Source: Methanomicrobiaceae archaeon UBA436
GTDB taxonomy: Archaea; Halobacteriota; Methanomicrobia; Methanomicrobiales; Methanoculleaceae
NCBI GenBank assembly: GCA_002497965.1
Contig: DAFR01000158.1
Span: forward strand, 1-7,366
Direction of reading: 5' to 3'
DNA: 7,366 bases
This document shows, piece after piece, positions 5,556-7,366 of the stretch (the stretch's first letter is position 1; each line of letters opens with the position of its first letter). The position numbers and the translations under genes were made by a program. Under the pieces are notes generated by a model. It saw only the letters and a program-made list of their open reading frames with translations, did not search any database and was not told the origin of the DNA.

Positions 5556-5831
5556 TCACCCCTTCGTTTTCCTGTACTCCGCCAGCAGCGCGTCGCCGTA
5601 TGCCTCGCGCTTCTTTGTCGGGATGTAGTTGAACTCACCCGCCCACCGGAGGAGTTCAGCGCGGATCGCGGCGTCGTCCTTCAGGTTGAGTTTTCGCACG
5701 CCATCCATGATGAAGTCCAGCTGGTTTATGCCAGTATCCTTGCCGTCCACCGGGATCGTCCTGATCTTTATGGCGTCGGGCCGGATCCCGCCGCAGATGG
5801 TGCAGTAATCACCCTCTTTCTCGTTTGTCAT
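5556..5831 (-). CDS. Small CxxC protein of unknown function
   Basis: The 91-residue soluble protein has one N-terminal Cys pair, C10 and C13 (YCTICGGI), then IKIRTIPVDGKDTGINQLDFIMDGVRKL and a C-terminal FNYIPTKKREAYGDALLAEYRK segment. One CxxC can be half of a metal site (completed by a dimer) or a redox-active pair; only two cysteines are present. It reads like a conserved methanogen protein, but I cannot name its family. It is last in the four-gene operon, 7 nt after the second cupin gene. GGAG at 5842-5845 precedes the ATG at 5831 by 10 nt and overlaps the end of the cupin gene. The operon context suggests a redox or sensing role. Confidence 0.78.
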   Translation of the reverse strand: MTNEKEGDYCTICGGIRPDAIKIRTIPVDGKDTGINQLDFIMDGVRKLNLKDDAAIRAELLRWAGEFNYIPTKKREAYGDALLAEYRKTKG

Positions 5832-5838
5832 CTCATGC

Positions 5839-6174
5839 TCACTCCCTGATCATCGTGAGCGACATCTTGAACCGGGTTATGGCCGAGAGCGCGTGAGGGA
5901 CGTTTGCCGGGAAGATGATCGTATCCCCCTCACGCATCTGGTACGTCTTGCCCGCAACCCAGACCTCACACTCGCCGTCAAGGATGGTCACCACCGCGTC
6001 ATACGGCGCGGTGTGCTCCGAGAGCCCTTCGTTCTCGTCGAACGAGAATATGGTGATGCTCCCTGCCGGTTTGTTGATGATCATCCTGCTTGCAACGGTT
6101 CCTTCCTGGTATGCGACAAGGTCCGCCAGGCGGATGACCTTGCCCCGCAACTCTGCACGTTTAGCATCTGGCAC
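5839..6174 (-). CDS. Small single-domain cupin protein (second of two)
   Basis: This 111-residue single cupin barrel has motif 1 around SEHTAPYDAVVTILDGECEVWVAG (52-75) and motif 2 as EGDTIIFPANVPHALSA (82-98). Candidate metal ligands are H54 and H94. The usual HxH pair of motif 1 is reduced to one histidine, so metal binding and catalysis are uncertain; ligand binding or sensing is equally possible. The start is GTG at 6174, chosen because GAGGTGA (6182-6188) lies 7 nt upstream. It follows the NapH-like gene by 19 nt and precedes the CxxC gene by 7 nt, so it is clearly inside the operon. It shares little with the first cupin beyond the fold, so a recent duplication is unlikely. Confidence 0.85.
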   Translation of the reverse strand: MPDAKRAELRGKVIRLADLVAYQEGTVASRMIINKPAGSITIFSFDENEGLSEHTAPYDAVVTILDGECEVWVAGKTYQMREGDTIIFPANVPHALSAITRFKMSLTMIRE

Positions 6175-6193
6175 TCTTTTTCACCTCGAGATC

Positions 6194-6952
6194 TTAATCT
6201 TTGCCGCCTCCCCGGGCGTAGACAAGCGCCCCCTCCACCGGGCAGGCCTCGGTGCACCTGCCGCAGAGGTAGCACTCGCCGAGTCTGGCGTCCGGGTCGG
6301 CCGCCCCTGTGGGGCACGCCCGTTCGCACTTCCCGCAATTGATGCAGGCATCCGTCCGCCGCAGCCGGTAGACCGCCCGTGACGAGACCGGGGCGAGCAG
6401 GGCGCCGTAGGGGCAGATGTAGCGGCAGAACGGCCGGTAGAAGAATACCGAGACGAGCAGGATGGCAAGGAAGATGACGAAGGGAACGCTTGCGACCCGG
6501 AGGTTGAAGAAGGCCCGGAGACCAAGGCGTGCGAGGAGGTTCACCGAGAACCCCGCTCCGGCGACCAGGATGACGAGAAAGACCCCCGCCCTGATCGCCA
6601 CCTGCCTCCGGTTTGCGGTGTGGCGGTGTTTCTTAACCGGGATCAGGTAGACGAGTTCCTGAACGGCACCCACAGCGCAGACCTGGCCGCAGATTATCCG
6701 GCCCGCGAGGAAGACAAGGACGATGAATACAACCAGCCCTATGAGCACCGGCAGGTTCCCGAGGACGACCTCCTGCACCATGAATGGGAAGACCGGTGCA
6801 AAGACCAGGAACCCGAGAAGCGCCGATGCTGCCAGGAAGACCAGCGCTCGCCGCCTTGTGAACCGCCTGGAGTACCAGAGCAGGGCGAGGACGGCGAAGG
6901 CAAGGTAGGCGTAGACCACTCCTGTGATCATCGGGATTGATCCGGAAGGCAT
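6194..6952 (-). CDS. NapH-like membrane protein with two C-terminal 4Fe-4S clusters
   Basis: This 252-residue protein is a predicted membrane electron carrier of the NapH/NosR-C/CcoG type. About five membrane helices are visible (roughly 9-27, 36-54, 64-83, 119-140 and 155-173). Between or after them are two cysteine pairs typical of the family, C88/C92 (CGQVCAVG) and C176/C180 (CRYICPYG). A soluble tail holds two classic ferredoxin motifs, C203-C206-C209-C213 and C227-C230-C233-C237, for two [4Fe-4S] clusters. The first pair lacks the proline that usually follows the second cysteine. ATG 6952 is supported by GAGGAGG at 6961-6967, 8 nt upstream. It sits between two cupin genes. The electron donor and acceptor are unknown. 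Bacterial NapH oxidises quinol, but in a methanogen the partner is more likely ferredoxin or methanophenazine, or a substrate handled by the cupins. Confidence 0.9.
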   Translation of the reverse strand: MPSGSIPMITGVVYAYLAFAVLALLWYSRRFTRRRALVFLAASALLGFLVFAPVFPFMVQEVVLGNLPVLIGLVVFIVLVFLAGRIICGQVCAVGAVQELVYLIPVKKHRHTANRRQVAIRAGVFLVILVAGAGFSVNLLARLGLRAFFNLRVASVPFVIFLAILLVSVFFYRPFCRYICPYGALLAPVSSRAVYRLRRTDACINCGKCERACPTGAADPDARLGECYLCGRCTEACPVEGALVYARGGGKD

Positions 6953-6965
6953 ACCCGCTGCCTCC

Positions 6966-7304
6966 TCACAGGAGCCTGGTTTCGCTCGCCGGCCGAGGGG
7001 CCTTTACGACGAGCACCCGGAATGGACGGTCGCTCTCGTTGATCCAGCGGTGCGGGATCTTTGCCGGGCTCTCGACAAGGTGGTCGCGGCCGACGGTTGC
7101 TCGCTCGTCGCCTATCTCGACGACCCCTGTCCCTTCGAGGACGTAGAAGAAGACATCCACCGGGGTTATGTGCTTCTTTAACGCCTCGCCGGGCGCAAGG
7201 GTTATCACCACCGCTGTCGCGTGCTCGGTGTCATAGACCTTCCTGGCGTCGACATGGTGGGGGTTTTCGTTTACAGGCTCTTTTGATACGTCAACAATCT
7301 TCAT
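6966..7304 (-). CDS. Small single-domain cupin protein (first of two)
   Basis: This 112-residue cupin barrel contains LAPGEALKKHITPVDVFFYVLEG (about 36-58) and GRDHLVESPAKIPHRWINE (about 72-90). H45 and H85 are the likely metal ligands; the second histidine of motif 1 is replaced by Thr. Three in-frame ATGs lie close together at 7313, 7310 and 7304. I chose 7304 because AGGAG (7314-7318) is 9 nt away, while it abuts the first ATG; the TATA centre at about 7335 also puts transcription start near 7308. It is the first gene of the minus-strand operon and ends 13 nt before the NapH-like gene. The ligand is unknown; candidates include a metal, a small carboxylate or a modified sugar, none favoured by the sequence. 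Confidence 0.85.
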   Translation of the reverse strand: MKIVDVSKEPVNENPHHVDARKVYDTEHATAVVITLAPGEALKKHITPVDVFFYVLEGTGVVEIGDERATVGRDHLVESPAKIPHRWINESDRPFRVLVVKAPRPASETRLL

Positions 7305-7332
7305 CTTCATCATCTCCTGATGGTGTTCAACC

Positions 7333-7338
7333 TTTATA
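7333..7338 (-). promoter_or_regulatory. TATA element of the cupin/NapH-like operon
   Basis: On the minus strand ACAAATTATAAAGG contains TATAAA at 7333-7338, preceded by an A-rich BRE-like stretch. Transcription should start about 26-28 nt downstream, at 7307-7310. That would give a leader of only a few bases before ATG 7304 and would leave the AGGAG motif outside the mRNA, so the transcript may be effectively leaderless. The sequence upstream to the window end (7345-7366) shows nothing else. Confidence 0.6.
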
Positions 7339-7366
7339 ATTTGTCCAGTAGTTTGCGAGGCTCTCC

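Follow-up and report, generated by a model that had tools for sequence, protein, structure and literature searches.

A Methanoculleus-type row of two cupins, a NapH-like membrane protein, and a CxxC protein, with alSir and Hcp genes among its neighbors in related methanogens

The DNA analyzed here is the 7366-nucleotide contig DAFR01000158.1 of Methanomicrobiaceae archaeon UBA436, the whole of which we call the window. Its last part carries a row of four minus-strand open reading frames, which encode a cupin (cup1, 7313-6966), a NapH-like iron-sulfur membrane protein (6952-6194), a second cupin (cup2, 6174-5839), and a small CxxC protein (5831-5556). Compared with related genomes, this row is best read as the Methanoculleus version of a gene neighborhood that is conserved among methanogens and contains alSir, a small siroheme protein resembling sulfite/nitrite reductases, and, in relatives, the hybrid cluster protein Hcp. 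Given these neighbors, the set likely contributes, as a stress system, to the reduction and detoxification of nitrogen or sulfur oxides such as NO, nitrite, or sulfite. The function of the row is something we infer, and our confidence in it is therefore moderate.

The spacing of the four genes is 13, 19, and 7 nucleotides, as stated in the original prediction, which had been made from the window alone and had described four tightly packed genes. It had also proposed a membrane redox module with metal-binding cupins, an idea that fits the conserved ligands and the linkage described below, whereas the hints at a purpose, namely, alSir, TrmB, Hcp, HxlR, and ferredoxin-type genes, lay outside its view. 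Its remark that no described system has this set was revised after alSir and Hcp appeared among the neighbors; in the openly licensed literature, we found no paper that describes the gene set. The close relatives that have names are Methanoculleus, and the window is Methanoculleus-like; M. chikugoensis, for example, has homologues of NapH, cup2, and CxxC. The best genome match to the window is a sister genome (G059, 2.0 Mb; locus L079), in which the NapH-like protein is 99% identical.

Conserved neighborhoods of the gene row

We searched 232 genomes of one order, that of Methanoculleus sp. FWC-SCC1, which we take to be Methanomicrobiales, and found NapH-like genes in 140 of them. The neighborhoods of 110 NapH loci were examined; about 40 of the 150 places in the list were left out, for the most part second copies or those with the lowest scores, and many of the flanks are no longer than 1.5 kb or are cut short by the end of the contig. 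Within these loci, the partners are cup2 (62 loci), CxxC (48), cup1 (46), TrmB (29), DUF2115 (29), alSir (18), and Hcp (6). The original prediction had been staked on the NapH-like gene not standing without the cupins in most relatives; this holds, but the counts for cup2 and cup1 come close to the opposite.

The order of the window, DUF2115-cup1-NapH-cup2-CxxC, is present in 26 of the 110 loci, including that of the sister genome, and is often accompanied by a divergent TrmB gene. The row of these relatives comprises at least five co-directed genes. In 17 of the 26 genomes, alSir is found no more than 5 kb from cup1. NapH-cup2 or NapH-cup2-CxxC occurs in other genomes, in some of them with a divergent cup1, and in three loci (L107, L122, and L153), alSir follows NapH-cup2-CxxC on the same strand. 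Hcp is found upstream of NapH in L093, L095, L103, L104, and L126 and upstream of DUF2115-cup1-NapH in L074. Moreover, L103 and L104 combine both enzymes, with cup1-alSir-ferredoxin-HxlR divergent from Hcp-NapH-cup2-CxxC-zinc ribbon. Two further neighbor families (F24 and F19) were discarded as antisense frames over cup1 and cup2.

alSir and Hcp beside the cupins

In the sister genome, the alSir and TrmB genes lie just beyond the part that corresponds to the window. There, alSir is the open reading frame L079:3212-3964, which matches NIR_SIR and NIR_SIR_ferr only and contains C-x5-C and C-x3-C motifs. Its best matches are the NirB model of NCBIfam and, in the PDB, an F420-dependent sulfite reductase. 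It has the siroheme-4Fe-4S cysteine pairs and no extra ferredoxin domain, and thus resembles the published alSir proteins and fits the group I Dsr-LP definition as worded in the cited part of PMC3448663. According to the cited sections of PMC6286981, alSir reduces sulfite, was assayed in 1982, and has a physiological role that is called unclear; unlike in our genomes, those sections describe no cupin, NapH, TrmB, or HxlR neighbors. In the order searched, cup1 and alSir are linked in 65 of 101 genomes. Here and below, such pair counts give the genomes with the two genes within 5 kb among those listed for both genes; each list covers about 150 places, the genome totals are higher, and genomes outside the lists do not enter the denominators.

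Hcp is linked with the same small genes: with cup2 in 36 of 73 genomes, with CxxC in 28 of 66, and with alSir in 13 of 63. Class I Hcp has the cubane spacing CX2CX7-8CX5C. When 23 Hcp loci were scanned, all 17 Hcp frames obtained had the class I motif, without the 4-residue class II insertion, and the remaining six loci yielded no frame containing the searched string. The Hcp of L093 scored 797 bits against NF003658 (cut-off, 367). Among 20 further loci, which were chosen for cup1 close to cup2 or alSir, ten have Hcp and HxlR as divergent genes, with Hcp a fragment in one. In eight of these ten, Hcp adjoins cup2 among the searched genes, with a SnoaL gene between them in one case, and CxxC and a zinc-ribbon gene are each present in nine. 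The divergent regulator of the window-type row is TrmB; overall, the regulators found beside these genes are TrmB or HxlR, with no search aimed at Crp-type genes.

In bacteria, Hcp is reported as an NO reductase (PMC10210160). The same source, a 2023 paper on a methanogen class I enzyme, states in the passages cited that the electron donor is unknown and that class I hcp often stands alone in the genome, with nothing pointing to a partner; the absence of conserved hcp neighbors can there be viewed as an argument for a general donor. A cupin gene next to hcp has a counterpart in Desulfovibrio desulfuricans, where the pair Ddes_1828-1829 is listed as induced by NO with log2 changes of 4.4 and 3.2 (PMC5701242, in part), and a cupin_2 gene is named for Desulfovibrio hcp loci in a supporting-figure legend (PMC4287179). 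The class I Hcp and cupin of D. desulfuricans thus resemble Hcp next to cup2 in the relatives of the window. However, the archaeal loci contain CxxC, NapH, and alSir in addition, and their regulators are TrmB or HxlR instead of the Crp-type HcpR.

These neighbors could also be read as a general oxygen or redox stress module, in which the NapH-like and CxxC proteins repair or protect iron-sulfur enzymes and Hcp and alSir are nearby merely as stress genes. Hcp is reported, in the passages cited, to be made under oxidative stress and to act as a peroxidase as well (PMC10210160). In Thermoplasmatota, a NapH-cup1 pair has a DUF438-hemerythrin-PAS gene as its opposite-strand neighbor (L003:3180-6143), and NapH stands mostly away from Hcp, as this explanation would allow. 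Against it stands the frequent pairing of cup1 with alSir, a siroheme enzyme of the kind that reduces oxyanions. In addition, the annotated neighbor families include no peroxiredoxin or rubrerythrin, with no search aimed at them. Overall, we consider a general oxidative stress module rather unlikely.

Linkage and kinship

The tightest pair is cup2 with CxxC, linked in 106 of 112 genomes, and cup1 and cup2 are linked in 58 of 106. NapH has cup2 within this distance in 41 of 93 genomes and cup1 in 43 of 97. As random placement is estimated to give less than one genome for every one of the eight pairs considered, the linkage of these genes is far beyond chance. Among the 150 listed cup2 places, 34 have Hcp close without NapH, 36 have NapH without Hcp, and four have both. 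On a FastTree phylogeny of 114 NapH rows, 13 changes are required to explain the cup2 label, implying that the link between cup2 and NapH was made or lost several times. When labels were shuffled on this tree 500 times, no shuffle was as low for the larger label groups, and 32 were as low for cup1 alone. Across genomes, alSir and NapH occur together in 84, with 71 expected (p = 0.0008, kinship not removed).

Several counts weigh against a joint role of the row with alSir and Hcp. Only 5 of 66 genomes have Hcp near NapH and only 18 of 69 have it near cup1, and 76 of the 150 listed cup2 places have neither Hcp nor NapH close. With kinship not removed, the genome co-occurrence of NapH with Hcp (69 seen, 71 expected, p = 0.59) and of Hcp with alSir (63 seen, 60 expected) is near expectation. 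In nine of the 26 window-order genomes, cup1 has no alSir within 5 kb, and only 12 of the 26 possess Hcp, in no case within 10 kb of cup1. Outside the order, cup1 adjoins alSir in only 2 of 20 alSir loci, with HxlR and a ferredoxin-type protein near, and the D. desulfuricans cupin is only a possible orthologue of cup1 or cup2. Finally, in 36 of the 110 NapH loci, no member of the other 13 query families is present, with many of the flanks being short.

The last count would suit a NapH-like protein that is a passenger with a general ferredoxin-linked membrane role of its own, leaving cup2-CxxC and cup1-alSir as the working units, and these two pairs are indeed tighter than any pair with NapH. 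Such independence is harder to reconcile with the linkage of NapH to cup2, for which about 0.6 genomes would be expected, and with its recurrence in several arrangements on scattered branches, and we regard it as quite improbable. The least probable of the explanations weighed, and one we give very little credence, is a role in siroheme or heme metabolism, with the cupins handling siroheme or iron and the NapH-like protein feeding radical SAM heme enzymes. In its favor, neighbor families F10 (eight loci) and F21 (six loci) occur near NapH. Four members of F10 resemble the radical SAM proteins AhbC, AhbD, and NirJ (with scores below the curated cut-offs), one member of F21 was identified as AhbB with a score above the cut-off, and in L079 an F10 gene is 0.75 kb away from alSir. 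Against it, these loci, except for L075 and L079, come from a single group of related genomes in the NapH phylogeny, and most of the loci drawn lack F10 and F21 genes.

Within the 26 window-order genomes, Hcp together with adjacent alSir was found in four, alSir only in 13, Hcp only in eight, and neither in one (p = 0.003). This apparent complementarity of Hcp and adjacent alSir failed a kinship test (three supported independent pairs; sign test, p = 1) and is only a lead.

A proposed mechanism

If the row is a system for reducing nitrogen or sulfur oxides, it would be switched on by the divergent TrmB regulator, or by HxlR in the versions with Hcp. The NapH-like protein could serve as a membrane anchor, with its clusters on the cytoplasmic side, which takes low-potential electrons and hands them to alSir or to another cytosolic reductase. 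The two cupins may bind metal via a His-Asp-His set and act as sensor or cofactor-handling proteins, and the CxxC protein, whose gene almost invariably accompanies cup2, could act as a small carrier of thiols or metal.

A more far-reaching proposal, which we put forward only tentatively, is that the NapH-like protein as a dedicated iron-sulfur input anchored in the membrane, the two His-Asp-His cupins, and the CxxC carrier together power alSir and class I Hcp in this order and are their missing partner set. If true, this would give partners to two enzymes that have long been studied without a settled place in the cell. alSir and Hcp lie near the same cupins and CxxC gene in many genomes of the order, and near the NapH-like protein in some. 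These shared neighbors supply named candidate partners, so that the donor of Hcp and the role of alSir become testable. The order to which Methanoculleus belongs produces much methane in digesters and wetlands.

The NapH-like membrane protein

The NapH-like protein has a Fer4_5 domain and two 4Fe-4S motifs according to Pfam (PF12801 and PF12838). The first CxxxC motif (C88 and C92) is encoded at 6677-6691, the second, CxxxCP (C176 and C180), at 6413-6427, and the two ferredoxin-type 4Fe-4S motifs (C203-C213 and C227-C237) at 6242-6346, all on the minus strand and located by alignment of relatives, together with Pfam for the last two. All 12 cysteines are conserved in 100% of 113 relatives. An AlphaFold model with modest confidence (mean predicted local distance difference test score [pLDDT], 66) contains five long helices, in keeping with the original prediction of a five-helix membrane protein with two ferredoxin clusters. 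The membrane helices, the two CxxxC(P) motifs, and the two C-terminal 4Fe-4S motifs behind the helices are shared with the NapH/MauN family (TIGR02163). However, the protein scored only 59.1 bits against the model of that family (cut-off, 213) and falls below the subfamily threshold, and the partners of the window type are cupin, CxxC, alSir, and Hcp genes. No nap genes were named among the annotated neighbor families, with no search aimed at napA or napG. The residue after the first CxxxC motif, Ala93 (6674-6676), is proline in 99% of relatives and also alanine in the sister genome.

Some NapH loci have features of their own. The NapH proteins of L093 (genome G135) and L095 (G161) are identical and stand in the same Hcp-SnoaL-NapH-cup2-CxxC row, which could stem from a recent transfer, from strains that are closely related, or from a bin common to both. 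A gene lies between CxxC and NapH in two related genomes, at L129:3630-3980 (a PemK/MazF match) and L144:3514-3894 (the same neighbor family), and two tandem NapH-like genes follow cup2-CxxC at L114:4018-5814. Genes of the siroheme-to-heme path, AhbB-like and NirJ/AhbC/AhbD-like, recur near L115, L118, L122, L130, L145, L153, L075, and L079, with five members annotated.

The two cupins

Both cupins are single-domain proteins of the Cupin_2 family (PF07883; gathering cut-off, 27.2 bits), with 61.5 bits (E = 6.1e-17) for cup1 and 50.5 bits (E = 1.7e-13) for cup2. In the PDB, the TTHA0104-like cup1 matches 1v70 (E = 3.4e-11), and cup2 matches 3rns (E = 2.1e-28) and 1yhf (E = 8.6e-20). The likeness to 1yhf (SPy1581), 3rns, and 1v70 (TTHA0104) thus consists of sequence matches with E values from 3e-11 to 2e-28; these entries are titled as hypothetical, conserved-barrel, or probable proteins and differ from cup1 and cup2 in that no NapH or alSir partnership is noted for them.

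In cup1, His48, Thr50, and Asp53 are conserved in 100% and His88 in 97% of 45 relatives (codons at 7172, 7166, 7157, and 7052). Similarly, in cup2, His54 and His94 are conserved in 100% and Asp59 in 98% of 62 relatives (codons at 6015, 5895, and 6000). The two proteins therefore have the motif H-x-x-P-x-D ... H in common and are less unlike than the "two unrelated small cupins" of the original prediction, in which the assignment of both to the cupins was right. A classical metal cupin has two histidines and a glutamate in motif 1 and one histidine in motif 2. In the alignments, neither cup1 nor cup2 has this HxH...E...H set, and their shared motif could possibly be a 2-His-1-Asp metal set, judging from conservation.

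The first ATG of the cup1 frame, at 7313, abuts a GGAG sequence. The ATG at 7304 (MKIVDV...) lies 9 nucleotides after this GGAG and encodes a methionine that is invariant in 45 of 45 relatives, and because of this conservation and spacing, 7304 is probably the true start. The cup2 frame begins with GTG.

The CxxC protein

The CxxC protein has 91 residues, with Cys10 and Cys13 encoded at 5804-5793. Both cysteines are invariant in 24 sequences, along with Gly14, Gly15, and 13 other positions. No Pfam or NCBIfam match was found for the protein, and four relatives likewise had no Pfam match. Its structural model contains two strands and three helices (pLDDT, 81), and a fold search of this model against the PDB gave no match with E < 0.001. 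In the sister genome, a paralogue of the core domain with a CC pair is located at L160:1486-1923, with an ArsP-type permease (PF03773) on one side and a Thioredoxin_3 protein on the other. The core domain could serve more generally as an adaptor for metalloids or thiols.

The upstream DUF2115 gene and the TATA string

On the minus strand, the last 40 bases of the window (7327-7366) form the 3' part of a further gene, which finishes with ...LANYWTNYKG and a stop codon at 7329-7327; the DNA is identical in L079. The frame of this gene end in the window reads ...ESLANYWTNYKG*. A complete relative in Methanoculleus sp. FWC-SCC1 (L001:3859-4638) belongs to DUF2115 (PF09888, E = 3.5e-42), and the neighbor family F4 includes the true DUF2115 gene. 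The sister genome has an interrupted DUF2115 frame (L079:4840-5526), whereas the frame is open in L001.

The original prediction had placed the four genes behind one TATA element. The string is present at 7342-7331, but it consists of the N-Y-K codons of DUF2115 within its coding end, and a fifth co-directed gene thus precedes the four. A single promoter serving just these four genes is therefore not borne out. Upstream of cup1 in 28 related loci, the exact ATTATAAAG was found in three, TTATAA in 14, and TATAA in 20. Among 25 loci with NYWTNYKG, the second Asn-Tyr pair is encoded by AAT TAT in 14 and the first pair in none (p = 1e-5, kinship not removed). This bias suggests some selection at the second pair, softening the view of the string as mere codons, and the string could possibly act as an internal promoter as well.

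Other features

In the sister genome, an insert with TnpA-like and TnpB-like open reading frames, named by eye, lies between a ribosomal L34e-like gene and HypB (L079:8895-10490); the window has the same L34e-like/HypB junction without this insert. The window also contains a tRNA-Ala (CGC) gene at 857-928 on the minus strand.

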